Source of the DNA: Phycisphaeraceae bacterium
GTDB taxonomy: Bacteria; Planctomycetota; Phycisphaerae; Phycisphaerales; SM1A02
Length of the DNA: 64,000 nucleotides
Direction: 5' to 3'
Assembly (NCBI GenBank): GCA_019636755.1
Contig: JAHBWZ010000007.1
Coordinates: 124,001-188,000 of the forward strand
The translations under genes were made by a program, and so were the position numbers. How positions within the stretch are numbered: the first letter of the stretch is position 1; every line of letters begins with the position of its first letter. Below are positions 31,501 through 47,975 of the stretch, piece after piece. The notes below the pieces were generated by a model that made no database searches, was not told where the DNA came from, and worked only from the letters and a program-made list of their open reading frames with translations.

Positions 31501-31520
31501 CGCGCCCCCGCGGCGGGCCG

Positions 31521-31624: not shown

Positions 31625-31706
31625 CTCGGGGGTGGGCAGGGCCCGCAGACCCACCCCCACTGAGGTCGGTCGCAGGCGCACGGCCCCATCGCGCGTGCCC
31701 GGTCCT

Positions 31707-31755
31707 GACACGCCACCCGCCTCGCCGGCACCGACACGCCACCCGCCTCGCCGGC
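31707..31755. repeat. 23-base direct repeat, two copies, 26-base period
   Basis: GACACGCCACCCGCCTCGCC... at 31707-31729 and 31733-31755 are identical over 23 bases, separated by ACC. They follow the other two repeat sets within 100 bases. Confidence 0.8.
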
Positions 31756-32122
31756 GCGGGGGCGCATCCAGCCTTCGTTCGCCGATCCCCTCGCCTGGCC
31801 TCCTGCCCTCGCGCGCACCCACCCCCGGCGTCGTCGCGCGGCCCGCGTGGACCGATCGCCACCAACGCGGCGCGGCGCCGACGTCGCGCCGACGACGGCT
31901 GGCGGCTGTCGAGCAACTCTGCGGGGCTCCGCGCGGCACGGGTCTGCGGAGACTCGCGCGCCGGATCTCGACATGCCTCCGCGCAGATGCCTGCGAATCT
32001 GCTTCGTGTCGTGCCAGGGTCGAAGGCATCAGCGCGTCGTTCGCCGTCGATGCCCCGACTCGGTCCGGCCCCGATCGACGGCCGCCTCGGCACCGTCGCG
32101 GATCGCGCCCGCAGGCGTCCGG

Positions 32123-32128
32123 TACCAT
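32123..32128 (+). promoter_or_regulatory. -10 element of the glycan-locus forward operon (leaderless start)
   Basis: TACCAT inside GGTACCATCC, 8 bases before the GTG at 32137. The same 10-base word is found upstream of the second DegT gene at 58280-58289. Confidence 0.5.
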
Positions 32129-32136
32129 CCGTCGGC

Positions 32137-33507
32137 GTGAGTCACACCGCGCCTGCATCGGCCTCGGGCCCCGGACATTCCGGCGGATCGACGCACCCCA
32201 TCGGTTCGGCGCCAACCTCACCAGGATCCGCATCAGGATCCGCGGCGGACGTGCCGCCACGCGTGATCCCGTTCGGCCGTCCGATGTTCGGCGACGCGGA
32301 ACGGCAGGCCGTACTCGACGTGCTGGCCGGCCCGACCCTCACCCACGGCCCGCGCGTCCGCGCATTCGAAGCGCGGTTCGCTGAGATCACCGGCGCGCCG
32401 CATGCCATCGCCGTCGGGTCGTGTACCGCGGGAATGGAACTCGTCTGGCGCTCGATCGGGCTCGGACCGGGCGACGAGGTGATTGTCTCCGCGCAGACCC
32501 ACGTCGCCACCGCGCACGCCGTCATCATGACGGGCGCCACGCCCGTCTTCGCCGACAGCGAACCGGTCACCGGCAACGTCGATCCCACGCTGCTGGAGTC
32601 GCTGGTCACGCCGCGGACGCGCGCGATCGCCGTCGTGCACTATCTCGGCCTGCCTGCGGACCTGGACGCCATCCGCAGCGTGGCCGGCCGGAACGGGCTC
32701 TTCCTCCTGGAGGACTGTGCGCTCTCGCTGGGCGGACGATATCGCGATGCGCATACGGGGCTCATCGGCGATGCCGGCTGCTTCTCGTTCTACCCCGTCA
32801 AGCACATCACCACCGGTGAGGGCGGGATGGTGATCACGCGCCACGCCGACCTCGCGCGCCGCATCGAGTCCATGCGGGCCTTCGGACTCGATCGAAGCGA
32901 TCCCGCCGCGCGCCGGCATCCGGGTGCCTACGACGTCGTCGGGCCGGGCGCGAACCACCGCATGGGAGAACTGGCGGGCGCTCTGGGACTCTGCCAGCTC
33001 GATCGGCTCGCGGACTTCCTGGCGCGCCGCAGTGCGAATGACGCGGTGCTCGTCGGTCGACTGCGACGGATCGCCGGGGAGACCGGCGCTCTCCGGGTAC
33101 TCGGGGACGGCAGCGACTCGGCAGGCTCCCACCCGCGGCACACCGACACAGTCGATGCGCCCGGTCGCGTGAACCGCGCGGCGCCGCCGGCGGAAGCCGA
33201 TCCCCGCCGACCGGCGCGCATCTGCCGATCGATCGTCCTCTCGGATCGACTGGTCCCGCAGCGCGATTCGATCATCATGGCACTGTCGGATGCCGGAATC
33301 GGCACCAGCGTGTATTACCCGCGACCGGTTCCCTGCTTCACCTGGTATCGACGGACGTTCGGCGATGGCCCCGCGGCACGCGTGCCCGTGGCGGCGGCGA
33401 TCAGCCGGGGAAGCATCGCCCTGCCGATCGGTCCGCACCTTGATTCCACGGACATGACCGCAATTGCCGATGCTCTTGGTTCCATCCTGTGCGGAACGAG
33501 GGCATGA
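32137..33507 (+). CDS. DegT/DnrJ/EryC1/StrS aminotransferase (sugar aminotransferase)
   Basis: 456 residues. It transfers an amino group from glutamate to a nucleotide-linked keto-sugar. The PLP lysine is Lys222 in CFSFYPVKHITTGEGGMV. Typical blocks are VIPFGRPMFGDAERQAVLDVL, HAIAVGSCTAGMELVW, AQTHVATAHAVIMTGATPVFAD and the C-terminal TSVYYPRPVPCF. The start is the GTG placed 8 bases after TACCAT; the first about 38 residues are Ala/Ser/Pro-rich, so the GTG at 32251 is an alternative. It is coupled by ATGA to an NAD-dependent epimerase and then a GNAT. Confidence 0.92.
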   Translation: MSHTAPASASGPGHSGGSTHPIGSAPTSPGSASGSAADVPPRVIPFGRPMFGDAERQAVLDVLAGPTLTHGPRVRAFEARFAEITGAPHAIAVGSCTAGMELVWRSIGLGPGDEVIVSAQTHVATAHAVIMTGATPVFADSEPVTGNVDPTLLESLVTPRTRAIAVVHYLGLPADLDAIRSVAGRNGLFLLEDCALSLGGRYRDAHTGLIGDAGCFSFYPVKHITTGEGGMVITRHADLARRIESMRAFGLDRSDPAARRHPGAYDVVGPGANHRMGELAGALGLCQLDRLADFLARRSANDAVLVGRLRRIAGETGALRVLGDGSDSAGSHPRHTDTVDAPGRVNRAAPPAEADPRRPARICRSIVLSDRLVPQRDSIIMALSDAGIGTSVYYPRPVPCFTWYRRTFGDGPAARVPVAAAISRGSIALPIGPHLDSTDMTAIADALGSILCGTRA

Positions 33508-34592
33508 CAGGCACATCTGCGGGAATCCCGACAGGTCGGCGGATCGCGCTCATCGGCGGGGCCGGATTCATCGGCCACCATCTCGCCCTTGCCCTGGCGC
33601 GCCGGGGTGACCGGGTCGCCATCGTCGATGGACTGGAGGTCAACAACCTGCTCGCCTTCGCCGCCACGCGCGACGCGCAGACGGCGAGCCGTCACGGTCC
33701 CGTCGCGATGATCCTGGAGCGGCTGGACTGCCTCGAGGCCGCGGGTGTACCGATCCACCTCCAGGATGCGCGGGATCTTCGGGGACTGGTCGCGACGCTG
33801 GCCGAGCTGGCTCCGCAGACCGTGGTGCACCTTGCCGGGATGTCGCATGCGGTCCGGGCCAACCGGGAGCCGCAGGCCGCCTTCGACCACACCCTGCTGA
33901 CGCTCCAGAACACGCTGCTGGCGCGGCCGGAAACCGTCGAGCACGTGATCTTCCTCTCCAGCAGCATGGTCTACGGAGATTTTCTCAACGGCACGGTGGC
34001 CGAGGACGATCCCCCCCACCCGATCGGCATCTACGGTGCGCTCAAGCTCGCGGGCGAGCACCTGCTTCGCGCCCACGGACAGGTGACCGGGCTGCCCTGG
34101 ACGATCGTCCGACCCTCGGCCCTGTACGGACCGCGCTGCGTCAGCCGTCGCGTGACACAGGTCTTCACGGAGCATGCCATCGACGGCCAGCCGCTCACCT
34201 GTGACGGCGACGGCAGCGACCGCCTGGACTTCACCTGTATCGACGATCTCATCGACGGCCTGCTCCGCGTCATCGACACCCCGGCGTCACATGGAGAGAC
34301 GTTCAACCTGACCTGCGGCGAGGGCCGGAGCGTCGGCGAACTCATCGGGATCCTGCGCGAGCGCTTCCCGGGACTCGCCGTGACGTACCGCGACCGCGAC
34401 CGGCTCATGCCGCATCGCGGCACGCTCTCCATCGAGCGCGCCCGGCGCGTGCTGGGCTACGCGCCGATGTGGCCGCTGGAGCGCGGCATTCCCTCGCTCA
34501 TCGACTGGTACCTGGCGCGGCGCGCCACCGACGATCCCGTCGGGCAGATCGGACGCGGTGCGGCCCATCCCGCCGTCGTGCGGCGCGCATGA
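33504..34592 (+). CDS. NAD-dependent epimerase/dehydratase (extended SDR)
   Basis: 362 residues. Nucleotide-binding motif IALIGGAGFIGHHLALALAR near residues 12-31. Catalytic YxxxK is Tyr177/Lys181 in IYGALKLAGE, with the Ser in IFLSSSMVYGD. The C-terminus has RVTQVFTEHAIDGQPLTCDGDG and the family's IDDLIDGLLRV. It would epimerise or dehydrate a nucleotide sugar for the aminotransferase step. Its start overlaps the upstream stop and its stop overlaps the GNAT start (ATGA both), so the three make one unit. Confidence 0.92.
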   Translation: MTGTSAGIPTGRRIALIGGAGFIGHHLALALARRGDRVAIVDGLEVNNLLAFAATRDAQTASRHGPVAMILERLDCLEAAGVPIHLQDARDLRGLVATLAELAPQTVVHLAGMSHAVRANREPQAAFDHTLLTLQNTLLARPETVEHVIFLSSSMVYGDFLNGTVAEDDPPHPIGIYGALKLAGEHLLRAHGQVTGLPWTIVRPSALYGPRCVSRRVTQVFTEHAIDGQPLTCDGDGSDRLDFTCIDDLIDGLLRVIDTPASHGETFNLTCGEGRSVGELIGILRERFPGLAVTYRDRDRLMPHRGTLSIERARRVLGYAPMWPLERGIPSLIDWYLARRATDDPVGQIGRGAAHPAVVRRA

Positions 34593-35386
34593 CGACGACC
34601 GACCCGACGCCTTCCCGACCGGTCCACGTGGATGCAGCGCCCGACGGACCCGGGAACCCGGACGTCCCGAGGCTGCGCCCGGATGCGTGGCTGACCGCCA
34701 CCCTCGGCATCCCGTGCCTGGTGGCCGAGGTGCACACCCGCGCGGCCGCCCGGATGCTTGCCGCCGTACTGCCGCTGCCCGGACCGCGGAGCTTTCTCAC
34801 GATCCAGGCGCCCGCGTGCACGCCGCAGGACCTGGCGCCCCTGCTGGCGAAGGGGGCGTTCATCGCCGATACGCGCGTCACGCTTTCCGGATCGATCACC
34901 CAGGGGCGCGCCCGGAGCGGACGCGATCCTCGGACTGCGGACGTCCGGCTGCGCGAGGCATGCGACCGCGATCGCACGGCCGTGTGCGACCTGGCCGCCG
35001 GCGTGTTCACCTGCTCCCGGTTCCACCGCGATCCGCGGCTGGGTCCCGAGGCAGGCGCACGGATCAAGCGTGCCTGGACGGACGCGTGGTTCACCGGCCA
35101 CCGGGGGGATGCGATGATCGTCGCGGAGGATGCGCACGGTCCCGCCGGCTTTCTGCTCGCCCTGCGCCTGGACGGCACGCTGGTCGTGGATCTCATCGCC
35201 GTCGCGCCGCATCGTCGCGGCTGCGGCATCGCCGGCGACATGACGCGTGCCGCTTCGGAGCATCTTCGCTGTCGCGCCGTCCGGCTCGGCACGCAGGCGG
35301 TCAACACCGCATCCATCCGCGCCGGCGAGTCGATGGGGCTGCACGTGGAGCGCACCATGCCCATCCTGCATGTGCATGGCACCTGA
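34589..35386 (+). CDS. GNAT-family acetyltransferase (sugar N-acetyltransferase-like)
   Basis: 265 residues. An N-terminal half with little similarity is followed by a GNAT domain: VRLREACDRDRTAVCDLA near residue 117 and the acetyl-CoA loop DLIAVAPHRRGCGIAGDMTRAA near 205-226, then AVRLGTQAVNTASIRAGESMGLHVER. The arrangement recalls TDP-fucosamine acetyltransferase WecD (inference). It probably acetylates the amino-sugar made by the aminotransferase two genes upstream. Start overlaps the epimerase stop (ATGA). Confidence 0.85.
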   Translation: MTTTDPTPSRPVHVDAAPDGPGNPDVPRLRPDAWLTATLGIPCLVAEVHTRAAARMLAAVLPLPGPRSFLTIQAPACTPQDLAPLLAKGAFIADTRVTLSGSITQGRARSGRDPRTADVRLREACDRDRTAVCDLAAGVFTCSRFHRDPRLGPEAGARIKRAWTDAWFTGHRGDAMIVAEDAHGPAGFLLALRLDGTLVVDLIAVAPHRRGCGIAGDMTRAASEHLRCRAVRLGTQAVNTASIRAGESMGLHVERTMPILHVHGT

Positions 35387-35437
35387 CCGTGGACGCGGTC
35401 CCGCCAGGTCGCGCCACGTCCACTCACACCCGCCGAT

Positions 35438-36436
35438 TCAGGTCGTGCGCGGACGCACACTGGTCCGCGGCCGCCTCAGGATGATCGCGGCACCACCGAT
35501 CACGCCGGCCGCGAGCGCCGCCAGCGACGCCGTCGTCCACGCGGGCACGGCAAGGACCGGGGGCGAGTCGACATGGAACACCGCGTGGGGTCGCATGATC
35601 ATCGTTCCGATCACGGGGCCGGGGTCACCGAAGAACGACGGCGACCCATGCCCGGTCAGGCCGTTCGGGAAGAGCGCGTTGGTCAGCCACATCGGCACGG
35701 ATTCAAAGAGGATGGCGCCGGTCACGGTGTTCCAGTGCCCGATGGGTACGGCGCCCGGCGCGAGCTGCACGAGACTCGGCCCGGTTGGCTGCGACATGAA
35801 TGTCACGCTCGCCGCGGTCAGCGAGAGCGAGACGAGTTCCACCTCGACGGCATGGTCAGGGCCACCGATGGCGTGCAGCACGATCGTTCCCACGAAGTGC
35901 GACGGTCCATCCAGGACCGTGGAATCCGCCAGGGACCCGTCCGGCTCGACCGCGGCCAGGTCGAAGATCTCCAGCACGTCGCCCGGCGTCCACTGCAGGG
36001 CGAACGACGCGGTGGCGCCGACCTGCAGCGGCGCGGGTGGAACCACCCGCCACCGGCCGTTGGACCCACACGCCTTGCTCCCGGTGACTGCCGCCGGAAG
36101 ACAGTAGCAGTCGGCCCAGATGCCACCCACGACGTTCCGGCAGACGCAGCCCGAGGATCCGCAGGCGGCACCGGGGCTGTTGCAGGCGTGGAGGATCATG
36201 GTGTGGATGGTCTCGCTGCAGACCCCGCGACACGGATCCATCCCGTCCGCCCGCCCGTCGGACGCCAGTCCGACAGGGACGGCGATCACCGATACCGCCA
36301 GCGTCCGGCCGATGATCGACCGGGCCTGGACACCGCGGTCCGGCCGTGCACGGCCCGCGGCCGGACGACCCGGGGGATGGTGTCGGACGAGGCGCGACGC
36401 GGTCGACCCGGGGCATACTCCGTACGGCTGCGGCAT
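35438..36436 (-). CDS. Secreted Cys-rich protein with C-terminal sorting-like tail
   Basis: 332 residues. The signal peptide is probably RTLAVSVIAVPVGLASDGRADG; a Cys-rich stretch follows (DPCRGVCSETIHTMILHACNSPGAACGSSGCVCRNVVGGIWADCYC). The C-terminus VPAWTTASLAALAAGVIGGAAIILRRPR has a short VPxW motif, a membrane helix and an Arg cluster, similar to IPTL-CTERM tails that are processed at the envelope. No known function. The ATG is preceded by GGAGGT at 4 bases. It is inserted between two forward units of the glycan locus and may be a glycosylated substrate (speculative). Confidence 0.7.
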   Translation of the reverse strand: MPQPYGVCPGSTASRLVRHHPPGRPAAGRARPDRGVQARSIIGRTLAVSVIAVPVGLASDGRADGMDPCRGVCSETIHTMILHACNSPGAACGSSGCVCRNVVGGIWADCYCLPAAVTGSKACGSNGRWRVVPPAPLQVGATASFALQWTPGDVLEIFDLAAVEPDGSLADSTVLDGPSHFVGTIVLHAIGGPDHAVEVELVSLSLTAASVTFMSQPTGPSLVQLAPGAVPIGHWNTVTGAILFESVPMWLTNALFPNGLTGHGSPSFFGDPGPVIGTMIMRPHAVFHVDSPPVLAVPAWTTASLAALAAGVIGGAAIILRRPRTSVRPRTT

Positions 36437-36636
36437 GAGGACCTCCGCTCCCCGGCGTGGCCAGTGGCGCTCACGGGCGGCCCGCACGATGCGGTCCGCC
36501 GGCGCGGCCCATCTGCTCCGGCGTCCGAAGATGGACCGGCGCACGCGCCGATTCCGCCGATCGATCTCCGTCCGGGCGAGAACGGCGCCGATGCGGCACC
36601 TGGTGCCGGAGCGCCACCCGCGGGAGCCTCCTCCGC

Positions 36637-36642
36637 CATAAT
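36637..36642 (+). promoter_or_regulatory. Candidate -10 element of the asnB operon
   Basis: CATAAT in CCATAATCC, 11 bases before the ATG at 36654. The same 9-base word occurs on the reverse strand before the 47967 start. Confidence 0.4.
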
Positions 36643-36653
36643 CCGCGCGGACC

Positions 36654-38531
36654 ATGTGCGGCATCGCAGGCACCATCGGCCCGTCCCTGCCTCCGTCGGA
36701 GGCGCGGGACGCCGCCCTCGCGCTGCTGCACCACCGCGGTCCCGACGCGCGCGGGTCGATCGAGGTACGCCTGCATGCCGGGCGATCGGCGTGGCTGGGA
36801 TCCACGCGCCTCTCGATCATCGATCCGGACCCCAGGTCCGGCCAGCCGTTCGCCGTGGACCCGGACCATGTGCTGGTCTTCAACGGCGAGCTGTACAACC
36901 ACCGCGAGATTGCCGGCCTGCTCGCGGGCGGTCGCGCCGCGCTGCGCACATCAGGCGATACGGAGGTCATGGGCCGGCTGCTCGCGGAGCGCGGTCTGGA
37001 CGGCCTGCGCGACGCGGAAGGCATGTGGGCACTCGCGCTGCTGGACCGGCGCGACGGCTCGCTCCTGCTCGTGCGCGATCGCTTCGGCGAGAAGCCGCTG
37101 TACCTTGTCCGTGACGGAGCGTGCGTCCACTTCGCCTCGGAGATCAAGGCGCTCGCCGCGCTCCGTGGCCGTCGCTTCCGGGTGGACGCGGACCGGGTCC
37201 GGCGGTTCCTGGTGCACGGATACCGGGGCGTGCATCTCGATCCCGGGTCGCCGTCCTTCTTCATGGATGTCGAGGCGGTCCCGCCCGGCGGCGCCGTGCG
37301 CATCGATCCCGGGGGCCGGGTGACGGCCCTGCCGTGGTGGTCCGCGGCGGACGCCGCGGGGCGCGCCGGTACGGACGATGGCGGCGTGTCCCGGCGGGAC
37401 GCCCGCGACCGCGCGGAGATCGTGGCGGAGGTGCAGGCGGCGCTCGTCCACGCCGTCCGGCTTCGTCTTCGCGCCGATGCACCGGTCGCCTGCCTGCTCA
37501 GCGGCGGCGTCGACTCGAATGCGATCGCGGGCATCGCGCGGCGCGCGCTGGGTCGCGACCTGCCGACGTACACGTTCTCGGTGGACGATCCGCGCTACGA
37601 CGAGACACCGCTTGCCACCGCCGCCGCGCAGGCGCTCGGCCTTCCGAACCGGCGCGTGGGCTTCCGTCCCGGCAATTTCCTGCCGCGGCTCCGCGCCCTG
37701 GTCCACGAACACGACGCGCCGGTCCTGACGCTGGCGAGCGTCTGCCATCGCCTGCTGCTGGATGCGATCGCCGAGGATGGCGTCCGCGTCGTCCTGAGCG
37801 GCATCGGCGGCGATGAACTCTTCACCGGATACTTCGAACACCACAACGGGTATCTCGCCGCCATCCGCGACCGGCCTGATCAGTACGAGGCCGCCGCCGA
37901 AGCGTGGCGCCGCCACGTCCGGCCGATCACCCGCAATCCACTTCTGGCCGACCCGGACCTCTTCGTCCGCAACCCGGTCGAGCGTGCCCACCTGCACCTG
38001 GGCGCCGACGAATTCGCCGCCATGGTGCCCGGGGTCGATCCAGCACCATGGCGCGATCGTTCCTACCACGCGGTCCCGCTGCGCAACCGCATGCTCAACG
38101 ACCTGCTGCACGAGGTCGTTCCCACGATCCTGCACGAGGAGGATCTCAACGCCATGCATGTCTCGGTAGAGAACCGCGCGCCGCTGCTGGATCGCCGGCT
38201 GTTCGAGGTCGCCGCGGGGATCCCGACCGTGGAACTGGTCCGAGACAGTTTCACCAAGTCCGTCATGCGCGACGCGCTCCGCGGCCTGGTGGATGACGCG
38301 GTCCTGGACAGCCGACGGAAGGTCGGCTTCAACGCCCCGTTCCGCGCCCTGATCGACCCCGCGGATCCGGCCACGCGGGCCGAACTGCTGGCCGACGGGC
38401 CGATCTTCGAACTCGTCGACCGGCAGCGCATCACGCGCCTCCTCGACGATCCCGCGCCACCCAACAGCCGGAGCAAGTTCCTCTTCTCGTTCGCGAGCTG
38501 CCGCCTCTTCATGGATACCTTTGCGGCATGA
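36654..38531 (+). CDS. asnB: Asparagine synthase (glutamine-hydrolysing)
   Basis: 625 residues. Class II glutaminase with the N-terminal nucleophile Cys2 (MCGIAG), the LHHRGPDA and FNGELYNH motifs, and the synthetase PP-loop LLSGGVDSNA near residue 284. Within the family this type often lies in surface-polysaccharide loci and may amidate a sugar carboxylate rather than aspartate. Here it is coupled (ATGA) to a WbpG-like amidotransferase and the acyl-ligase fusion, which supports the glycan role. ENRAPLLDRRLFEVAAGIP is the usual C-terminal block. Whether it makes asparagine or an amide-bearing sugar cannot be told. Confidence 0.93.
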   Translation: MCGIAGTIGPSLPPSEARDAALALLHHRGPDARGSIEVRLHAGRSAWLGSTRLSIIDPDPRSGQPFAVDPDHVLVFNGELYNHREIAGLLAGGRAALRTSGDTEVMGRLLAERGLDGLRDAEGMWALALLDRRDGSLLLVRDRFGEKPLYLVRDGACVHFASEIKALAALRGRRFRVDADRVRRFLVHGYRGVHLDPGSPSFFMDVEAVPPGGAVRIDPGGRVTALPWWSAADAAGRAGTDDGGVSRRDARDRAEIVAEVQAALVHAVRLRLRADAPVACLLSGGVDSNAIAGIARRALGRDLPTYTFSVDDPRYDETPLATAAAQALGLPNRRVGFRPGNFLPRLRALVHEHDAPVLTLASVCHRLLLDAIAEDGVRVVLSGIGGDELFTGYFEHHNGYLAAIRDRPDQYEAAAEAWRRHVRPITRNPLLADPDLFVRNPVERAHLHLGADEFAAMVPGVDPAPWRDRSYHAVPLRNRMLNDLLHEVVPTILHEEDLNAMHVSVENRAPLLDRRLFEVAAGIPTVELVRDSFTKSVMRDALRGLVDDAVLDSRRKVGFNAPFRALIDPADPATRAELLADGPIFELVDRQRITRLLDDPAPPNSRSKFLFSFASCRLFMDTFAA

Positions 38532-39739
38532 TCACCTGCCCGCGATGCGTGCTGCCGGACACCCGGCCCGGCCTGGGCCTCCGGCCGGACGGGACCTGCG
38601 ACTGCGGGACGCCGGAGGCGAAGGGCGCGATCGACTGGACGGCGCGGGCCGCCGACCTGGAGACGCTGCTGGCCGAGGCGCGCTCGCACGCCGCGGCGCG
38701 CGGGGCGATGTACGACTGCGTCATTCCCGTCAGCGGCGGCAAGGACAGCCACTGGCAGGTGATCACCATGCTCGAGCGCGGCCTCCGACCGCTCTGCGTG
38801 ACATGGCGCACGCCGGGCCGGACGGCGATCGGCCGGAAGAACCTGGAGAACCTGGTCAGCCTGGGCGTCGATCACTGGGACATCACGATGCATCCGCGCG
38901 TCGAGCGACGGTTCATGTACCAGGCGTTCTCGCAGGTGGGATCCCCGGCCGTGCCGATGCACATGGCGATCTTCGCGGTCCCGCTCCGCACGGCTCTCCT
39001 GCTGCGCATTCCGCTGGTCGTCTGGGGCGAGAACAGCGCGCTGGAATACGGCGGACCTGCCGCCGATCGCATCGGCACGGACCTGGACGAAGCGTGGCTT
39101 GCCCGCTACGGCTGCACGTTCGGCACGAGCGCCCGCGACTGGGTGGGCGACGCCCTGACGGCCCGGGAACTCGGCCCGTGGCAGTGGCCCGGCGACGCGG
39201 ACCTGCGCGCCGCCGGCGTGCGGTCGATCTTCCTGGGTGCGTTTCTCCCGTGGGATCCTGACGAGGTCCACCGCGTCGCGGCGGCGCATGGGTTCCAGGC
39301 GCGAGCCCGGGGCCCCCGCACCGGCGCGTGGAACTTCGCGGACATCGACGACGACTTCGTGTCCATCCACCACTGGATGAAGTGGTACAAGTTCGGCTTC
39401 ACGCGCCTCTTCGACAATCTCTCCGTCGACATCCGCGCCGGCCGGATCACGCGGGAGGAAGCGATGGCCGTCATCCGCGCCCGCGGCGATGAGCGTCCCG
39501 ATGCCGACATCGACCTCCTCTGCGGATACCTGGGCATCACGCGCCGGCACTTCTTCGACATCGCCGAGCGCTTCCGCAACCCCGCGGTCTGGACCGAGCG
39601 CAACGGCGTGTGGACGATCCCCGGGTTCCCGATCCCGGACTTCGACTGGGCACGGTTCGGCGGACCGGCGCCCGGGCGCGCATCCGGTGCATCGCCCGCC
39701 GGTGCCGCCACCACCTCCGGCGGAGGCATCGCGCCATGA
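38528..39739 (+). CDS. WbpG/PseA-like N-acetylsugar amidotransferase
   Basis: 403 residues. The start MITCPRCVLPDTRPG has the family's Cys pair (CPRC) and a second pair CDCG. The PP-loop ATPase motif is VSGGKDSHWQ near residue 70. Diagnostic downstream blocks are HMAIFAVPLRTALLLRIPLVVWGENSALEYGG and DFVSIHHWMKWYKFGFTRLFDNLS. Known members (WbpG, PseA, LegA) make acetamidino sugars with ammonia from HisH/HisF-type partners. No HisH or HisF is present; asnB is adjacent instead. ATGA overlap at both ends. Confidence 0.9.
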   Translation: MITCPRCVLPDTRPGLGLRPDGTCDCGTPEAKGAIDWTARAADLETLLAEARSHAAARGAMYDCVIPVSGGKDSHWQVITMLERGLRPLCVTWRTPGRTAIGRKNLENLVSLGVDHWDITMHPRVERRFMYQAFSQVGSPAVPMHMAIFAVPLRTALLLRIPLVVWGENSALEYGGPAADRIGTDLDEAWLARYGCTFGTSARDWVGDALTARELGPWQWPGDADLRAAGVRSIFLGAFLPWDPDEVHRVAAAHGFQARARGPRTGAWNFADIDDDFVSIHHWMKWYKFGFTRLFDNLSVDIRAGRITREEAMAVIRARGDERPDADIDLLCGYLGITRRHFFDIAERFRNPAVWTERNGVWTIPGFPIPDFDWARFGGPAPGRASGASPAGAATTSGGGIAP

Positions 39740-42600
39740 CCACGACGCGCCCCGGAGTGCCGCGCGGTCCGCGGCGCCGCGCGGCGCGCGTGAACGCACC
39801 GGCATCCGGCGCGAGCGCCCGCACCGATGGCTGCGTGCACCGGCGACTGGAACAGCTCGCGCGCGGCGAGGGACCGGACGTGCTGCTCCGATTCGTCGAT
39901 GCGGACGACACCCTCCGTGCCGCCGGCCCGCGCGATGTCGCGTGGCGCGCCATCGCGGTCGCCGGACACCTGCAGGCGACGGTCCCGCCGGCCGACGGCG
40001 GGCACCCGCGCCCGCCGCGTCCCCGGGTGGCGTGCGTCCTGCCCGCCGACGACACGCCCGTCTACGTGTTCCTCGGCGCGATGGCCGCCGGGTGTGTCCC
40101 GAGCCTCTGGGCACCGCCGTCGCCTCGGATGCGCCGTGACGACATGGACGTGCAGTTCGATGCACTGCTGCGCGCCGCGCGACCGGATGCGATCGTGACG
40201 ACCGCCGCGCTGCGCGAGGTGCTCCCGGGCGCACGCGACGCGCCCGACCGCACGCGGCTCGTCGTGCTGCCCGAGGAGGTCCTCCGAGGATCCGCGCCGT
40301 CCGACCAGGACGTTCCCGCGCAGCTGGCGCAGGTCCGCGACCGGGCCTGCGCGCCCGCACCGGTCCCGACCGACGCGCCGCTCTTCGTGCAGTACTCGTC
40401 CGGAACGACCGGGATCCGCAAGGGGGTCGCGATCAGCGACGCCATGCTGGCGCGACAGGTGGAGGCGTATGGAGGCGCCGTCGCGATGGGGTGCGATGAC
40501 CGCGTGCTCTCGTGGCTGCCGCTCTACCACGACATGGGGCTCGTCGCCTGCTTCCTCGCGCCCCTGCTGCGCGGCGCGTCGATCGTCCTGCAGAGTCCGT
40601 TCGACTGGATCACGCGTCCCGCCTCCTGGATCGACCTGGCCGCGCGTCACCGCGCCACGCTCTCGTGGCTTCCGAACTTCGCCTTCGACGTGATCGCCCG
40701 GAGCGCCGCGTCGTGGACGCCGGATCCGGCGCTCGGGCGCCCCGCCGAGGAGGCACTCGCGACGCTGCGCGGCATCGTGAGCTGTGCCGAGCCGATTCAC
40801 GCGGCGTCGTGGGATCGCTTCCGCGCCGCGCTCGCCCCGATGGGACTGCGCGAGGACGCCCTGGCGACGTCCTACGCGCTGGCGGAGCATGTCTTCGCCG
40901 CGACCAGCGGCGGGTTCGGAGAGCCGCCGCGGCGTGACTGCGTGGACGCCGACCGGCTGGCGCGCGACGGACTCGCCATTCCCGTCGAACGCGATGACCC
41001 GCGCGCACGGACGTGCATCGCGTCCGGCCGCGCGCTTCCCGGCGTCCGCGTGCGCATCCGCACCGCCTCGGGCGACCCCTGTGCCGAACGCGCCGTGGGC
41101 GAAATCGAACTGGACGGTCCCTGCCTCTTCCACGGCTACGACGGCAGTCCGGCGCTGACGCAGCGCGTGCTTCGCGACGGGGCGTTCCGGACCGGCGACC
41201 GCGGCTACCTCGCCGACGGGCACCTCTTCGTCCTCGGGCGCCTGGACGACGGCCTGCTGATCCGGGGACGCACGCTCGATCCGGAGGGCATCGAGTCCTG
41301 CCTCAACGACCTGCCCGGCCTCGTGGCCGGCCGGGTCGCGGTCGTCGCCGAGCCGGATCCGGGACTGGGCACCGATCGGCTGCTCGTGGTGGCGGAGGTC
41401 AGTGACGCGCTGGCATGCCCGCGGCCGGGCGATCCCTCCGGGCCGGCGACCACGCCGGAGCGCGCGACCTCGAGCGCCGACCGACGATCCCTGGTCGAGT
41501 CCGTCATCGATCGCGTCCGCTCGTGCGCCGAGGGGTGCGTGCCGCGCGTGGTCCTGGTCCCGCGCGGCACGCTCTCCAAGTCATCCTCCGGGAAACTGTC
41601 GCGCTCGCGCATCCGCGCGGAGTTTGCACAGGACGCCGCCGAGAGCGCGTCGCCCGGGATGATCGGGGGTGTGCCCGCCATCCGGAGCGCCGGGGTGCCC
41701 GCATCCGGACCGGGGGTCGCCGCGGAGGTCCACCGGATCTTCCGCGAACGCGCCGCCGCGTCGTCGGACTCGCTCGGCCGGCTCGCGCTGCTCCTGGACC
41801 TGGAGCGGACCTTCCGCGTCACGATCACACCGCAGGTCCTCGGCCGCGTGCGCCTGGCGCGGGGCGATGATCCGCTGCGCACCGCCGACGGCGCCGCGGC
41901 CCTGATGCATGCAGCGCTGTGCGGCGCATCGCCGGCGCGCGGCGGCCATGCCCCCGGGGCGACGGTGCGGCTCACCCCGGGGCGCTGCGGGCGCCCGGGC
42001 GGCGCGCCCTTCGACGATGCGCGCTCCCGACGGTGGACGAGGCGGCTCCGGAAGCTCGGCGTGCGCGTCGGCCGCGGACTTCGTGTGCGCGGACCGCTCC
42101 TGCTGCGCCTCGAGAGCGATCCTGCCCGGATCGAGATCGGCGATGACGTCACGCTGATGCCGTGGGTGGATCTCAAGATCCGCGAACAGGGGCGCATCGT
42201 GCTGCACGACGGCGCGGTCCTGGACACGATCGTGCGACTTGTCGCGGCCCGCGACGGCAGCATCATCGTGGGCGAGCGCGCCCAGCTCGGGATGGGCACG
42301 ATCGTCAACGCGGGTGAGCGCGTGGCGTTCGGCACCGGCGCCGTCACGGCGGGCCATTGCACCATCCTGGCGTCCGAACATCGATGGTCGGGCCCGGGGC
42401 CGATCCTGGAACAGGGCTATGACCATGCGCCGGTCGAGATCGGCGATGGCGCCTGGATCGCGGCCGGTGCCACCGTCATGCCGGGCTCACGGGTCGGCGA
42501 CGGCGCGGTCATCGGTGCCGGCGCGGTCGTCCGCGGCACGATCCCCGCATGCTCGCTCGCGGCCGGCAACCCCGCGCGGGTGATCGGCTTCCGCGGATAG
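39736..42600 (+). CDS. Acyl-AMP ligase / acyl carrier / hexapeptide acyltransferase fusion
   Basis: 954 residues in three parts. Residues about 30-625 form a fatty-acyl-AMP-ligase-type adenylating enzyme: YSSGTTGIRKG (from Tyr220), SWLPLYHDMGLV, GEIELDGPCLFHGY and SKSSSGKLSRSRIR with the catalytic Lys. Residues about 650-730 look like a carrier domain, with the phosphopantetheine serine in SSDSLGRLALLLDLERTF (Ser679). Residues about 785-954 are a left-handed beta-helix acyltransferase with hexapeptide repeats (IEIGDDVTLMPWVDLKI, GAWIAAGATVMPGSRVGDGAVIGAGAVVRG, SLAAGNPARVIGF). An acid could be activated, loaded in cis and passed to a sugar. The last 114 bases run antisense to the next gene. 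Confidence 0.87.
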   Translation: MTTTRPGVPRGPRRRAARVNAPASGASARTDGCVHRRLEQLARGEGPDVLLRFVDADDTLRAAGPRDVAWRAIAVAGHLQATVPPADGGHPRPPRPRVACVLPADDTPVYVFLGAMAAGCVPSLWAPPSPRMRRDDMDVQFDALLRAARPDAIVTTAALREVLPGARDAPDRTRLVVLPEEVLRGSAPSDQDVPAQLAQVRDRACAPAPVPTDAPLFVQYSSGTTGIRKGVAISDAMLARQVEAYGGAVAMGCDDRVLSWLPLYHDMGLVACFLAPLLRGASIVLQSPFDWITRPASWIDLAARHRATLSWLPNFAFDVIARSAASWTPDPALGRPAEEALATLRGIVSCAEPIHAASWDRFRAALAPMGLREDALATSYALAEHVFAATSGGFGEPPRRDCVDADRLARDGLAIPVERDDPRARTCIASGRALPGVRVRIRTASGDPCAERAVGEIELDGPCLFHGYDGSPALTQRVLRDGAFRTGDRGYLADGHLFVLGRLDDGLLIRGRTLDPEGIESCLNDLPGLVAGRVAVVAEPDPGLGTDRLLVVAEVSDALACPRPGDPSGPATTPERATSSADRRSLVESVIDRVRSCAEGCVPRVVLVPRGTLSKSSSGKLSRSRIRAEFAQDAAESASPGMIGGVPAIRSAGVPASGPGVAAEVHRIFRERAAASSDSLGRLALLLDLERTFRVTITPQVLGRVRLARGDDPLRTADGAAALMHAALCGASPARGGHAPGATVRLTPGRCGRPGGAPFDDARSRRWTRRLRKLGVRVGRGLRVRGPLLLRLESDPARIEIGDDVTLMPWVDLKIREQGRIVLHDGAVLDTIVRLVAARDGSIIVGERAQLGMGTIVNAGERVAFGTGAVTAGHCTILASEHRWSGPGPILEQGYDHAPVEIGDGAWIAAGATVMPGSRVGDGAVIGAGAVVRGTIPACSLAAGNPARVIGFRG

Positions 42601-43710
42601 GGGAGGTTCAGGCAGCAGGATGTCGAACCCGGTCACGAACCGCAGGGCGTCCTCGGCGCCGGCCCGCGTCCAGCGGAACCGGCGCTCGTCGACCACCGCG
42701 GCGAGGTCGCGCTCCGCCGCCTGCACGGGCTCCGGCGCCGGCGCCGGGCGCCCGGCGTGAGCCACGTGAAGAAGACCGAAGCTCAACTCGGTGTCGTACC
42801 GGCCGTCCACGGTGACGTGGATGCCCCGCGCATCGACCGCCAGTCCGCGACACCAGTTGCGCTCGCGCTCGCCGAGACGGATCACCTCCGTCGGCAGCGC
42901 GCTGCGGAAGCGACGCCGATCGTGCCGCGGCGCCGGAGCCGCGATGAGGATCTTGCCGTCGATGCTCGTGAAGTGGAATCGATCCTCGAACACGTCGCCG
43001 TCGTGCAGGCACGCGGGCGTCCTGAGGGCGATGGCGTGCAGCCTGGCGCGCCGCGCTCCGGGTCGGATCTCGATCAGTGCGCTGAGGTTGCGGCTGAGCA
43101 GGAAGACCGACTCGCCATGCAGGTGCACCGCGTTGAAATGAAAGTGCCCGGTCGGACCGGCCCACGGCTTGCTGACGAAGCGGAAGTCGACGTCGTCCGG
43201 CACGCTGCGCGCCGAGCGGTCCAGTCGCAGCGACCGGGTGACGACGTACCGGTCCAGGACGCGGCCATCCGGGTCCATCTCGACGACGAGGTCAAGGAAC
43301 GGCATCGCACCGATGATCCGGTCCGGCGACGCGGCGATCCGGTGCAGATAGCACGTGAAGCGGTTGCTGAGGAAGCGCCGCGGCGTCGCATCGCGCGCAT
43401 CGAGTTCCCAGATTCCGTTCCAGCACGCCGCGAGTATGACCCCCGGGCGCCGCGCGAGCCCGGTGAGTCCGAAGCGCGGGGCGGATTCGAACGGGTCGGT
43501 CGAACGCGGCACCTCGCCGCTGAGCGGAACGCGCGCGAAGTCCGCCGGGGCAACCGGAAACGGGAGCGCCCGCACCGCGTCACGCGCCCCGTCACCGACG
43601 ATCCAGAGCGCCGGACGCACGATGTCCGGCGGAACCGGCGCGTCGGGCCGGTAGCCGTGCACGAACGAGACCAGTCGCGCCGTGCGCAGGTCCGGTCCGG
43701 TGTCAGGCAT
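42487..43710 (-). CDS. Beta-propeller-like protein of the glycan locus
   Basis: 407 residues, no signal peptide or membrane helix visible. Repeating beta units with a conserved pattern are seen: GLTGLARRPGVILAACWNGIWELDARD, HRIAASPDRIIGAMPFLDLVVEMDPDGRVLDRYVV, HFNAVHLHGESVFLLSRNLSALIEIRPG. This resembles DUF4915-like or NHL-type propellers. WNGIWELD and HLHGESVFLLSRN recur as a blade motif. Its function in glycan assembly is unknown; it may be a lyase-like or sensing propeller. Start overlaps the upstream stop by 8 bases. The last 38 codons are antisense to the fusion gene, and the true end may be shorter in function than in sequence. Confidence 0.68.
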   Translation of the reverse strand: MPDTGPDLRTARLVSFVHGYRPDAPVPPDIVRPALWIVGDGARDAVRALPFPVAPADFARVPLSGEVPRSTDPFESAPRFGLTGLARRPGVILAACWNGIWELDARDATPRRFLSNRFTCYLHRIAASPDRIIGAMPFLDLVVEMDPDGRVLDRYVVTRSLRLDRSARSVPDDVDFRFVSKPWAGPTGHFHFNAVHLHGESVFLLSRNLSALIEIRPGARRARLHAIALRTPACLHDGDVFEDRFHFTSIDGKILIAAPAPRHDRRRFRSALPTEVIRLGERERNWCRGLAVDARGIHVTVDGRYDTELSFGLLHVAHAGRPAPAPEPVQAAERDLAAVVDERRFRWTRAGAEDALRFVTGFDILLPEPPLSAEADHPRGVAGRERACGDRAADDRAGTDDRAVADP

Positions 43711-45748
43711 GGGTGGCGCGCCTCCCGGCGGCGGTTGCCTTCGGTCGGGGCGCGGTGACGGGCGGGCACTCCGATCCGCGGTCGCGGCCGGCCGCGCGAT
43801 CCACCCGGGCAAGCCGCGCCAGGAGCCGCGCGACGCGCTCATCCGGGACGTCCCGCGACCCGCCCGCGGCACCGGGCGGCGCGGGCGATCCGGTCACCGG
43901 CACGAAGTGACCGCGCAGCGCCGCGCGCGTCCGGGCCACGCCGTCCGCGCGCGCCGCATCGTCCCGCAGCCAGGCGCCGAGCACCGCCAGGGCGCGCTCG
44001 ACCGAGTCGGCCGCCGGCCAGCGCGAGAGCCCCGTTGCGCGGGCGTCGAACCAGGGCATCGCCGCCGTGAGCAGCAGGACAGGCGCGCCGGCCGCCGCCG
44101 CTTCCAGCAGCGCGGAGGACGGCGCGAGGGCAAGCACCGCATCCGCCGCCGCCGCCCACGCGGCGAGCGCGTGCGGCGCGCCGCCCGGTTCCCTCCCGCT
44201 CGGCGCGGGGGCGGCGCCGCCGGTCAGCACGAGGCGTGATCGCAGGCCCCGCGCCTCCATCGCACCGACGATGCCGGCATGCCCGCTGCGCCGGGGATGG
44301 CCGCGCACGACGATGTGCTGCGGCGGATCCTCGACGAGCAGGCGCGCGAGCGCGTCGTCGCGTCGTCGCAGCGCCGACCACTCTGCCCGGGGAATCCCGG
44401 TGGGGTCCGACGCGGCGAGGACGAGCAGCACACGATCGGTGTCGCCGGCACCGATCTCGGCGCGGATGAACGCCCGCGCCGCGCGAAGCGCGCGGGCGTC
44501 CGGCGAACCGTCGAGCGTCGGATCGCCGGACGTGACCACCACAGCGCCCGCCGCGCCCGTCGCGCTCGCGCCGTGCCGCAGCCGTCGCGCCTGGGCGGGT
44601 CCGACGGCGCCGATCACGTGAGCGCGCGTCCATGCCTGCGGGAGCCCGATCCCGGCACACAGCGCGGCGTGCGGAAGACAGGCGGTCGGGATCCCGGCGG
44701 CGGCGGCGACATCAAGCGCCGGGACCGGGAAGAACCCGATCGCGCGCCGCGGCGCCGCGGCGGCCAGCAGCCGCTGCCAGCCGCGCACCTGCCTGCGGAC
44801 ACGTTCGAGGTAGGGACCGACGATGAAGTCGAGATGCGTGGCCAGTGCGACGCCCAGGTCCGGCCCGCCGGCGCCGCGCGATGCCGATGTGAGCGCACCG
44901 GCGAGCGCCTGCCGGAGCAGCACCGACTGCCTCGGATCGACGTCGCACGACCCCGGATCGTCCGCACCGCACCGCGCGAACAGCGCTCCCTGCGCGATGA
45001 GTCGATCGTGGCGCTGCCGGGCCGCGTCCCGCTCGGCCTCGATCGCTGCCGTGTACACCAGCAGCGCCGGCCGGCGGGTGGCCGCCTCCACCGCGTGCGC
45101 CCACGCGGCGGCGCGGAGGAGATCCGGGCCGTTGGCGAGCACCAGCGTCCACGCCTCTCCGCCGAAAACGGCGCGAAGTCCTGCCTGCGCACCGTCGGAG
45201 ACCGGCGTCATGCCGGCACCGACCGCCGCCTGGGCGGCGCGATCCCTGAACCCGACACGCGGGACGGCATCGAATGGAGTGCCGCGCGCCCGGCACGCCT
45301 CCCGCATGATCGCGCCCAGCAGCGGCAGCGCCGGAGGCTCGCCCGGCTGGTCCAGTCCATGTCCGTCAAGGTCCACGACGGCGCGCACGGACGCGGGTGC
45401 CAGGCGCTCCAGGCAGATCGCCGAGGCCACGGTCTGCCACGCGAGACGCGACAGCGCCGCCACGTGGCGCCACATCGCGACCGACAGCAGATCGAGTCCG
45501 CCTTCCGTGACCTCGCCGGCACTCGTCCACGCCCGGATGAGTACCTCCCGCAGCGCGCTCACGCGCGATCGCGCCCGCGTCGGAACGATGGCCGGCAGCG
45601 TGATGCACGGGACCGACTGCGCGGCGGCGTCGAACGCGGACGCGCTCGCTGCGACCAGGAGCGCGTCCGCCGGCGGCGGCCCGAGCCGGATCGGATCATC
45701 CGGGCCCCCGAGCAGCACGACGTGCCGTCCGCGCAGACCGCCGGTCAT
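43703..45748 (-). CDS. Putative glycosyltransferase-like protein, glycan locus
   Basis: 681 residues. The start ATG overlaps the upstream stop (ATGA). No membrane helices. The C-terminal third resembles GT-B-type enzymes or capsule polysaccharide biosynthesis proteins: GIPTACLPHAALCAGIGLPQAW, ARRLRHGASATGAAGAVVVTSGDPTLDG, RVLLVLAASDPTGIPRAEW and LAPSSALLEAAAAGAPVLLLTAAMPWFD, a nucleotide-sugar-binding style. The N-terminal half is unlike known families. Ala content is very high. It probably adds or processes a sugar, together with the CgeB-like enzyme upstream. Confidence is in it being a real gene, less in the activity. Confidence 0.7.
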   Translation of the reverse strand: MTGGLRGRHVVLLGGPDDPIRLGPPPADALLVAASASAFDAAAQSVPCITLPAIVPTRARSRVSALREVLIRAWTSAGEVTEGGLDLLSVAMWRHVAALSRLAWQTVASAICLERLAPASVRAVVDLDGHGLDQPGEPPALPLLGAIMREACRARGTPFDAVPRVGFRDRAAQAAVGAGMTPVSDGAQAGLRAVFGGEAWTLVLANGPDLLRAAAWAHAVEAATRRPALLVYTAAIEAERDAARQRHDRLIAQGALFARCGADDPGSCDVDPRQSVLLRQALAGALTSASRGAGGPDLGVALATHLDFIVGPYLERVRRQVRGWQRLLAAAAPRRAIGFFPVPALDVAAAAGIPTACLPHAALCAGIGLPQAWTRAHVIGAVGPAQARRLRHGASATGAAGAVVVTSGDPTLDGSPDARALRAARAFIRAEIGAGDTDRVLLVLAASDPTGIPRAEWSALRRRDDALARLLVEDPPQHIVVRGHPRRSGHAGIVGAMEARGLRSRLVLTGGAAPAPSGREPGGAPHALAAWAAAADAVLALAPSSALLEAAAAGAPVLLLTAAMPWFDARATGLSRWPAADSVERALAVLGAWLRDDAARADGVARTRAALRGHFVPVTGSPAPPGAAGGSRDVPDERVARLLARLARVDRAAGRDRGSECPPVTAPRPKATAAGRRATHA

Positions 45749-47967
45749 GTCGAGCGATCCGTCAGACCGCGCCGGACGAAGTCCAGGATCCCGGGAAGCC
45801 GCGCGTCGTACCCGGCAAGGCTCCGGATGCGCTGTGCCCAGGCGCGTCGCCGCGCGTCCGCCGATGTGCGATCCGCCAGCAGGCGCTCGGCGCACGCGCG
45901 GAACGCGGCCTCGGAGTCGAACGCGTGCGATGCAAGCCCGGCGAATCCGTGTCGTCCGGCGCCGAACGGCGCGGCGGAGCCGTCGCCGTAGTCGCGCGTG
46001 AAGGCGTCGACGCCGCCCGGACCGAAGTCGACCGGTGTCGCGCGGACGATGGGAATCGCCCCGGAGAGAATCGACTCGAACGACCGCTGATGCATGAAGC
46101 CGGTCGGGATGGTCTGCAGCGCGAGCGTCGCGGCGCGGTAGACGCGCCGGAGCGGCTCGCCATGTTCCACCGGCCCGGCGGCCAGCCCCGCGAGGTCCGG
46201 CACGCGCTCCCACCCGCGGCCGTACACGCTCATCCGTCGGCCGGTGTCCCGCGCCCACGACGCCGCCCATCGCAGCGACTGCAGGCGGAAGCGCAGATCG
46301 AAGAGCCGGTGCACGAAGGAACCACCGAGGCGCTCGGCGCCATCGTGGGCAAGCGTCGCGCCCGTTTCCTCGGCGGCGGCCTCGACGAGGACCGCCGCGC
46401 CCGCCGGTCCGAGGTGCCGGCCCTGCCCGATCACGCGGTCCACCGCCGCGGCCATGGCATCGAGCAGCCGGGCCGCCGGCGCCGACTGGCCCTGGCGGTG
46501 GCTGCGGATGAACTCTTCCGGCGTCTCGTGGAGGTGCCCGACGTAGACGAGGTCCACCGGCGGCCGGTCCTGCGCGCTCCCGGCGGGAAGCGGTGCGTCG
46601 TGGAATCGACGCGCGGACACCGGATACCACCCGAGTCCGAGGACGCGGTCCTCCGGATAGCCGAACTCCTCCACCAGGCGCCGGCTGAAGAAGCCGACCA
46701 CGAAGTCGCGCTGCGCAATCGACGTCCCGGAGGCGACGCTCAGGATCTCCTCCACGGGATCCTGCACCCATGTCAGGACGGGCACCTCGCCGAACAGATC
46801 GGCGTGCTCGCGCCGGAGATGGTTGATCATGACGATGAGCGCCGGATCCTCGTCGGCCACCAGTCGCGCGATGGCGTGCGCCGTGTGCGGCTCGATCGCG
46901 GAGCGCTCCTCGCACAGGATGAACCGGTAGCCCATCGCCTCCAGCGCATCGCCGATATCGCGCATCGAGTGCCGCACCATCGTGGTGAACCGGGAGACGA
47001 AGCCGACGACCGTCGCGCCAGGCGCCAGCCGGGCCGCGCGCTCGGCGTCGGTTCTCGCCGCGTCGCGCCGGGCGATCGTCTCCCGCGCACGCGCGCGCAT
47101 CGCCTCCCGTGCGCGGCGGAGCATGGCGGCCGTCTCATCCATCGCGGCCCGCAACGGCGCATCCTTGTGGATCTCGACGACCGCCGAGTGGGGCGGCAGA
47201 CCCTCCCGTCGCTCCAGGAGATCCCGATACCGCGCCGCACCATCCCGGCCGGGACACAGCAGCACACGCTCCGAAGCGAGGAGTTCGGAGCGGCCCGGCG
47301 TCGCAAGCCACGCCGCCACGCGGTCCTCATCCGGATCGGCCACGTAGATCGGCGGCACGATGCCGGTCCCCGGCGCCGGCCCCGGTGTCGACGCAGGCGC
47401 GGACATCGTCGCGGCCATCACGGCCTCGATGAGGGGCTCCGCCGTCACACCGATCAGCAGCACGGCGTGACCGCGGAGCGGCGCGAACTGCCGCGGGAGA
47501 TCCGGATCGACGACCGGCCGCCGGATGCCCAGCGGCCATGTCCGCAGCCCGCCCGACGGCACGATCGACACGTGCCAGAAGCCGCTCCGGCAGCGGGCCG
47601 CGCGGAGGCTCGGGGCGCGGGCGCGCAGCCGATCCGCCGCACCGGCGGCGCCGAGCAGTTCAAGGCGCCGTGCGGCGCGCTCCAGCCGTTCCATGACCTC
47701 CGACGCCGGCGCCTCGGACGCGGGAATGCCCTCCAGATGCTGCGCGAGCGTGTCCAGTTCGCGGCGATCGCTCGCCGTCGTCGCCATCGCCTCCAGGATC
47801 TCGCGCGCCGGCTCGACGAGCCCCAGCACTGCCAGGGCCGCGACCGCGGAAGGACCGGCGCTGCGATCGCCCGCTGCGAAGCGGCGCCATCCGTTCTCCG
47901 CGCGGAGCCAGGGATCGTCGCCGGCGACGCCCGATCGGGCCGCATGATGTCCCGTTGCGCCGGTCAT
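45745..47967 (-). CDS. CgeB-like glycosyltransferase (Glyco_trans_1_2 type)
   Basis: 740 residues from the ATG at 47967, which follows CATAAT by 8 bases (the GTG 3 bases earlier is less likely). The C-terminal part shows the spore-protein CgeB/Glyco_trans_1_2 pattern: FSRRLVEEFGYPEDRVLGLGWYPVS, VDLVYVGHLHETPEEFI, RMSVYGRGWERVPDLAG, EPLRRVYRAATLALQTIPTGFMHQRSFESILSGAIPIVRA. The N-terminal third is probably an all-helical domain. The middle has a long coiled stretch, residues 270-330. It leads a three-gene reverse operon and probably glycosylates a surface protein or glycan (inference). Confidence 0.82.
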   Translation of the reverse strand: MTGATGHHAARSGVAGDDPWLRAENGWRRFAAGDRSAGPSAVAALAVLGLVEPAREILEAMATTASDRRELDTLAQHLEGIPASEAPASEVMERLERAARRLELLGAAGAADRLRARAPSLRAARCRSGFWHVSIVPSGGLRTWPLGIRRPVVDPDLPRQFAPLRGHAVLLIGVTAEPLIEAVMAATMSAPASTPGPAPGTGIVPPIYVADPDEDRVAAWLATPGRSELLASERVLLCPGRDGAARYRDLLERREGLPPHSAVVEIHKDAPLRAAMDETAAMLRRAREAMRARARETIARRDAARTDAERAARLAPGATVVGFVSRFTTMVRHSMRDIGDALEAMGYRFILCEERSAIEPHTAHAIARLVADEDPALIVMINHLRREHADLFGEVPVLTWVQDPVEEILSVASGTSIAQRDFVVGFFSRRLVEEFGYPEDRVLGLGWYPVSARRFHDAPLPAGSAQDRPPVDLVYVGHLHETPEEFIRSHRQGQSAPAARLLDAMAAAVDRVIGQGRHLGPAGAAVLVEAAAEETGATLAHDGAERLGGSFVHRLFDLRFRLQSLRWAASWARDTGRRMSVYGRGWERVPDLAGLAAGPVEHGEPLRRVYRAATLALQTIPTGFMHQRSFESILSGAIPIVRATPVDFGPGGVDAFTRDYGDGSAAPFGAGRHGFAGLASHAFDSEAAFRACAERLLADRTSADARRRAWAQRIRSLAGYDARLPGILDFVRRGLTDRST

Positions 47968-47975
47968 CACGCGGG

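Follow-up and report, generated by a model that had tools for sequence, protein, structure and literature searches.

Fatty acyl-AMP ligases (FAALs) are described as passing an acyl-adenylate (acyl-AMP) to a holo-acyl carrier protein (holo-ACP) and rejecting coenzyme A (CoA); their hallmarks are a specific insertion and a proline-lined alternative pocket for 4'-phosphopantetheine that rejects CoA, and the roles reported for them lie in lipids, polyketides and lipopeptides (PMC8460268). The known FAAL-ACP didomain proteins HapA, NocH and AmbG carry a FAAL and then its own carrier in one chain, and feed polyketide or peptide assembly (PMC11837247); the main text of the same review contains neither "sugar" nor "hexapeptide". 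Here, we describe a gene (positions 39736..42600) in a 64,000-nucleotide stretch of a Phycisphaeraceae bacterium (assembly GCA_019636755.1, contig JAHBWZ010000007.1, positions 124,001 to 188,000; hereafter the window, with features on the + strand unless marked otherwise), whose 954-residue product shares the FAAL-carrier order of these didomains and adds to it a left-handed beta-helix (LbH) acyltransferase domain of the sugar-modifying type. We propose that this fusion is an activate-tether-transfer acyltransferase acting on a nonulosonic acid (NulO), i.e., a sialic-acid-like sugar, or on its amino-sugar precursor, a reading to which we give a probability slightly below one half (about 0.48).

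Comparable relays have been described from separate genes. In the tetronate pathway of Vibrio cholerae O1, the ligase RfbL activates the 2,4-dihydroxybutanoate of the O-antigen and RfbK is a possible carrier, so that, as proposed here, a ligase from a surface-sugar cluster activates a free hydroxy acid, which is putatively put on CoA or a carrier (PMC12208996). In contrast to the fusion, RfbL and RfbK are separate genes, and the O-antigen sugar is not a nonulosonic acid. That sugar is perosamine. Nonulosonic acids themselves bear varied N-acyl groups. For Pse5Am7Gra of Tannerella forsythia, an AsnB-type gene was proposed to provide the acetamidino group of pseudaminic acid, which recalls the AsnB gene beside the fusion, and the authors called the gene for the N-glyceroyl group elusive, an example of how genes attaching non-acetyl N-acyl groups can escape identification (PMC6120980). 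The available text of that account and of one on the sps legionaminic acid (Leg) pathway of Bacillus subtilis (PMC7439481) mentions no ligase-carrier-transferase fusion. Nor did such a fusion appear among the literature matches listed at the level of titles and abstract beginnings, a search that had most subscription journals outside its reach. Each element has precedents, be it the FAAL-ACP didomain, the LbH acyltransferase for sugars or the relay of separately encoded ligase and carrier; what seems to be new is their fusion in a NulO setting. In nonribosomal peptide synthetases (NRPS) of the Pls/PosA type, hexapeptide-like repeats come after an adenylation-carrier part. They differ in having an amino-acid adenylation domain where the fusion has a FAAL, and their model (TIGR02353) was rejected as a match, with 28.8 bits vs a cut-off of 423.1 and only a 48-residue hexapeptide stretch aligned.

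The fusion is encoded in one intact open reading frame (ORF), as the preliminary description of this DNA had held. The GC content at third codon positions (GC3) is 0.84-0.94 in every 50-codon block up to residue 950, carrier region included, and therefore argues for a single coding frame throughout, with nothing to suggest that the carrier region is frameshifted or non-coding. A frameshift hiding the carrier was considered and rejected, as the other two frames over 41590-41950 contain, by eye, no carrier-like peptide. In a scan of 84,980 species genomes, from which the best 80 of 584 relatives were analysed, one full-length match was recovered: an 871-residue protein (L045:9809-12424) of a Minwuia metagenome-assembled genome (MAG), encoded on a contig of 429,681 bp, with 39% identity in the best segment (query residues 97-954). 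The preliminary description had suggested looking for the same three-domain order in other genomes, and the Minwuia protein has it, located, as in the window, after AsnB and then WbuX. This second copy, found next to sialic-acid-like sugar genes in a distant bacterium, and the uniform GC3 rule out an assembly error or chimeric ORF, and the domain arrangement therefore appears genuine, if rare. A match spanning FAAL to LbH was found in none of 100 other relatives, with up to 8 candidates scored per genome, and in none of 391 other genomes of the phylum and 396 of the class, overlapping sets in which two candidates were scored per genome and copies can escape. Likewise, none of the 551 plasmid records with hits covers 80% of the fusion query. 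A closely related FAAL in genome G811 is cut by the contig end; an LbH search in this genome was empty, which is weakly informative.

The N-terminal domain (residues 96-636; 40021..41643) is, by sequence and fold comparison, a ligase of the FAAL, i.e., carrier-loading, type. Pfam recognises AMP-binding (PF00501) at residues 96-468 (E 1.8e-40), and the best NCBIfam models for this part are those of FAALs or long-chain ligases, all under their curated cut-offs (PRK09192 250.8/600 bits). FAALs make up 15 of the 18 best sequences in the PDB (E 1.5e-45 for 3pbk; 5d6n counted with 5d6j), and the top fold match of the FAAL part in VIA-align is 7r7f_A (Z 43.7, 547 residues, root-mean-square deviation 2.6), tied with 3kxw, 3lnv and 7r7e. 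A keto-acid-selecting NRPS domain ranks sixth in the fold list (Z 41.6), below FAALs, and a canonical CoA ligase was rejected, being outranked by FAALs in both the sequence and the fold list. The ATP-binding motif SSGTTG, which the preliminary description had placed from residue 221, is present at residues 221-226 (40396..40413). Adenylation residues are retained at the P-loop (S221, S222, G223, T225, G226, K229) and at E384, D488, R502, K615 and K620, the last of which (Lys620 in SSGK; 41593..41595) is conserved across FAALs in the alignment and is presumably the A10 lysine. In total, 60 of the 67 columns conserved in 35 stand-alone FAALs are kept. The FAAL type of the ligase strengthens the idea that the acyl group would be tethered.

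The C-terminal domain (residues 763-954; 42022..42597) belongs, by its profile and PDB matches, to the LbH acyltransferases. The preliminary description had such a domain begin at about residue 785; Hexapep (PF00132) confirms it at residues 900-934 (E 3.9e-11, 42.6 bits, cut-off 27), and similarity to the Minwuia protein already starts at residue ~767-770. This domain is 57% identical between the two proteins (109/192), i.e., across phyla, and the two are sisters among 13 LbH rows (98/97). The closest solved relatives are maltose/galactoside-type O-acetyltransferases. His882 (ASEH; 42379..42381), a motif also found in the Minwuia copy, aligns with a His of 3ftt, and we take it to be catalytic from this alignment to the His of galactoside/maltose acetyltransferases. 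The domain thus resembles LbH acetyltransferases of the LacA, Mat, WbbJ and WcaF types in its hexapeptide repeats and in an aligned catalytic-type His; it differs from them in scoring below curated cut-offs (WbbJ 56.8/243 bits; PRK10502, the WcaF family, 57.8/192) and in being joined to a FAAL and a carrier.

Between the two lies a segment (residues 659-728; 41710..41919) that we read, from sequence and model, as a reduced carrier of the ACP-like four-helix type that retains its serine and may be active. In the AlphaFold2 model of the full-length single chain, helices are predicted at residues 659-672, 679-693, 699-709 and 717-728, with block values of the predicted local distance difference test of 69-90 over 661-730. 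Ser679 (41770..41772), the putative phosphopantetheine site, opens helix II and is part of D678-S679-L680. We built a profile from 26 other carriers (24 DSF, 1 DSL, 1 DSM), 23 of them chosen by similarity to the Minwuia carrier; in all 26, the column of Ser679 is serine and the DS motif is present, the conservation that the preliminary description had singled out for checking. On the isolated segment, this profile scored 4.9 bits vs a best of 1.8 in 1,000 shuffles, and hhalign gave 20.4 vs a best of 16.8 in 200 shuffles; among ten 105-residue slices along the fusion, only 596-700, which shares the same core, equals that value (20.5). Similarity is limited to D678-P699, and identity to the Minwuia carrier is 9/20 over the core of serine and helix II (678-697) and 16/60 over residues 656-730.

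Several observations on the carrier and the ligase weigh against our reading. The carrier-like segment with DSL at Ser679 had been claimed before, and the motif, the four predicted helices and the scores above shuffles stand; a Pfam carrier match over residues 650-730 does not, as PP-binding (PF00550) is without a match at E <= 1 on either the whole fusion or the isolated segment, and the assignment depends instead on the Minwuia homologue, the predicted structure and profile scores that are weak. On the whole fusion, the carrier profile yields only 0.8 bits, a value that three of 1,000 shuffles exceed, and the best 25 of 36 NCBIfam matches of the carrier-LbH part include no carrier model. Loop I is 14 residues shorter than in the Minwuia carrier in the multiple alignment, with a pairwise alignment placing the gaps elsewhere, and a weak 23-bp tandem duplication (41671..41715, score 58; overlapping row 41674-41723) lies at the boundary of FAAL and carrier, at residues about 646-660. 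The window FAAL departs from 7 of the 67 conserved columns, N513T and Y515D included, where the 35 stand-alone FAALs depart from 0-8 (median 1), and its branch is long (1.79 vs 0.63 for the Minwuia FAAL), unlike that of the LbH domain (0.53; Minwuia 0.59).

Given this rapid divergence of the FAAL and the loss of length in the carrier, the main rival explanation is that the activation module is decaying or idle here and that the LbH domain alone works as an acetyl-CoA-dependent sugar acetyltransferase, like the free-standing LbH proteins of relatives. We consider this rather unlikely. It would account for the missing Pfam carrier match, the shortened loop I with the local duplication nearby, and a branch that is long for the FAAL and not for the LbH domain; moreover, a free-standing 201-residue LbH protein lies between AsnB and WbuX in three of four operon loci of the same family (L035 and L189, from one genus, and L036), and in the stretches analysed for these three, neither a FAAL nor an ACP was matched. 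However, the frame is intact and GC3 uniform, the listed catalytic residues of the FAAL are all retained, as are D678-S679 and the helix-II core, and AlphaFold2 still gives the four carrier helices. For experiments on the activate-tether-transfer reading, the Minwuia copy is the better enzyme because its carrier is recognised by Pfam (22.4 bits, cut-off 20.8); NCBIfam carrier models also match it, below cut-off.

The genomic context points to a surface sugar. Upstream of the fusion are an AsnB-type glutamine-dependent amidotransferase (36654..38531; TIGR01536 306.2 bits, cut-off 267.1; PF00733, PF13537) and a WbuX/WbpG-type N-acetyl sugar amidotransferase (38528..39739; TIGR03573 276.5 bits, cut-off 203.2), so that both amidotransferases named in the preliminary description are borne out above TIGRFAM cut-offs. 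The start codon of the fusion gene shares ATGA with the WbuX stop codon (39737-39739) and the WbuX start likewise overlaps the AsnB stop; because of these overlaps, the three genes are probably translationally coupled. The DegT aminotransferase (32209..33507, the homologous part of ORF 31393-33507), NAD-dependent epimerase/dehydratase (33489..34592) and GNAT acyltransferase (34469..35386; WecD-like, with a score below cut-off) reported just upstream are present, assigned by profile and operon-gene matches, but do not strictly belong to the same operon, being separated from AsnB by 1,267 bases (35387-36653) with an opposite-strand ORF inside.

At the Minwuia locus, the gene order is NeuA-like, Gfo/Idh, DegT, epimerase, GNAT, NeuB, AsnB, WbuX and, last, the fusion, and NeuB matches PF03102 above cut-off (212 bits). 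A NulO gene set (NeuB, cytidylyltransferase, aminotransferase, dehydratase/epimerase, acetyltransferase) occurs together there and at loci L036 and L184, and L035 has the same set except NeuA, which lies outside the stretch taken. NeuB-AsnB-WbuX is found, whole or in part, in four loci of the window's own family (L035, L036, L189, L190). L190 has no LbH gene between AsnB and WbuX and its contig ends inside WbuX; in L184 (genome G103, same phylum as the window), the operon is without an LbH gene and has a polysaccharide-deacetylase-like gene before AsnB; and in G014, the operon type is present with the contig cut inside WbuX. Operons of this type thus resemble a pathway for nonulosonic acids. 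The DegT, epimerase, GNAT, AsnB and WbuX genes of the window each match genes of this operon type, and the window genome has homologues of every operon gene, spread over three contigs (C18, C15, C6): on C15, its NeuB clusters with those of the operons, on a long branch (1.58) and with unstarred forks of 87/90 and 85/94, and a NeuA and Gfo pair lies on C6. One gene of the ACPS (phosphopantetheinyl transferase) family is on C16. As side observations, contig C17 of the same genome (G000:C17, L193:8251-10101) carries a 616-residue ORF that joins an N-terminal half resembling a cytidylyltransferase (by eye) to a C-terminal NeuB half and so represents a second NulO-type synthase, and small alike-looking proteins directly follow WbuX at L035:8682-9086 (134 residues; no Pfam match), L036:11034-11462 (142 residues) and L184:12111-12458 (115 residues).

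This setting has its own weaknesses. The Minwuia NeuB is under the curated NeuB/PseI equivalog cut-offs (TIGR03569 276.5/399.65) and the NeuA-like protein under all NCBIfam cut-offs among the matches listed, and because of this we leave the exact sugar open. In the window genome, NeuB, NeuA and Gfo lie away from the operon genes of the window, and a search of the flanking sequence (14 kb behind the window, 16 kb ahead of it) yielded no operon genes. The WbuX tree places the window with L045, L184 and L190 (100/99), apart from the loci of its own family with a free LbH gene, and the AsnB tree places it outside the other six operon rows (99/96); the gene set therefore has a mixed history. One might suppose that the acceptor is another surface sugar, e.g., a 4-amino-4,6-dideoxyhexose, and that AsnB, WbuX and the fusion form a portable cassette, as could be read from the scattered NeuB, NeuA and Gfo genes, the sub-cut-off resemblance of GNAT to WecD, and the occurrence of WbuX homologues at loci that lack AsnB or a complete operon. 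This is improbable, however, given that the Minwuia fusion ends a NulO-type operon, that three family relatives have an LbH gene within that operon, and that all five of the window's DegT, epimerase, GNAT, AsnB and WbuX genes match genes of it. The suggestion of a new acylated surface sugar keeps its sugar context, narrowed to a NulO-type operon, with the pathway, acyl group and acceptor remaining conjectural.

The activate-tether-transfer reading follows from the three domains with their kept catalytic residues, the recurrence of the fusion in another phylum, the AsnB-WbuX pair common to both loci, the NulO-type operon at the Minwuia locus, and the operon homologues and the phosphopantetheinyl transferase family gene in the window genome. 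In this scheme, the FAAL domain would adenylate a free carboxylic acid, the fusion's own reduced carrier would receive the acyl group on the phosphopantetheine of Ser679, and the LbH domain would transfer it to the sugar at an amino or hydroxyl position; the adjacent AsnB and WbuX would convert an N-acyl group to an amidine. Carrier loading, the acid used, the sugar position and a NulO as acceptor are what we infer from the domains and their context. The three-part enzyme envisaged in the preliminary description thus holds in domain order and sugar context, and the FAAL type favours its tethering step, with transfer along this pathway a conjecture. As a single chain combines all three functions, the acylation step is testable with a single purified enzyme, and, if the scheme is true, FAALs would extend from lipids, polyketides and lipopeptides into sugar modification.

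Two sibling fusions, from two distant genomes, have the same first two parts. L154:9264-12296 (G103; 1010 residues) and L068:9830-12448 (a betaproteobacterium MAG; 872-residue ORF cut at the contig end) encode FAAL-ACP proteins whose C-terminal domain is SGNH/GDSL-like instead of LbH, and the L154 carrier scores 17.0 bits to PF00550, under the cut-off of 20.8. They possibly represent a second sugar- or glycan-directed FAAL fusion. In the FAAL tree, they share a group (94/90, not starred) with the L045, L210 and window proteins; the window and Minwuia FAALs are not sisters (weak forks, long window branch), which speaks against our reading insofar as joint descent of the whole fusion is therefore not supported. 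Selection and phylogeny of the whole fusion would have two members only to draw on. Given the sibling fusions and a free ACP gene within 1.5 kb of the related FAAL in 22 of 79 loci, FAAL-ACP pairing is common and the fusion to a transfer domain the unusual step. In two Magnetococcales FAALs, L074 (9545-12052) and L100 (9668-12115), a long C-terminal extension has a weak carrier match with DS near its end (E 0.0036 and 0.11), and the stretch between it and the FAAL is SGNH-like by eye.

The frequency of nearby ACP genes (22/79), together with the reduced carrier of the window, also bears on an alternative in which a working FAAL bypasses the carrier of its own chain, either because a separate ACP is loaded in trans or because the LbH domain takes the acyl-AMP without a thioester. 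We hold this to be very unlikely: no other ORF of at least 60 residues in the window or L045 matches the L045 carrier at E 1e-4, a search that did not extend to ACPs elsewhere in the genome, and we know of no LbH acyltransferase that uses acyl-AMP. Taking the activate-tether-transfer reading further, the LbH fusions (window, Minwuia) and the SGNH fusions (L154, L068) could belong to an undescribed class of single-chain sugar-directed FAAL-ACP-acyltransferases with swappable transfer domains, which would attach non-acetyl free acids, e.g., glyceroyl or hydroxybutanoyl groups, to NulOs without CoA. Such a class is a tentative proposal and somewhat unlikely as a whole; if true, it would supply the missing step for N-acyl groups of the glyceroyl and hydroxybutanoyl type.

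The window has some further features. The gap between GNAT and AsnB, where operon relatives carry NeuB, is occupied by an opposite-strand ORF (35438-36259, -, part of 35438-37573) with a membrane- or sorting-like tail at its end (by eye) and no Pfam match. A tandem repeat (31300-31503; 62-bp unit x3.2, alternatively 30-bp x6.6) lies ~0.7 kb upstream of the homologous part of DegT. Further upstream, consecutive genes at 27539-30713 for a methyltransferase, an FAD-dependent oxidoreductase and a type III polyketide synthase (DpgA-like, below cut-off) look like a small type III polyketide synthase cluster. The fusion is followed by two large overlapping ORFs (43703-46915, -, and 45745-47970, -); the first is without a Pfam match and the second has a sub-cut-off Pfam match to a glycosyltransferase.

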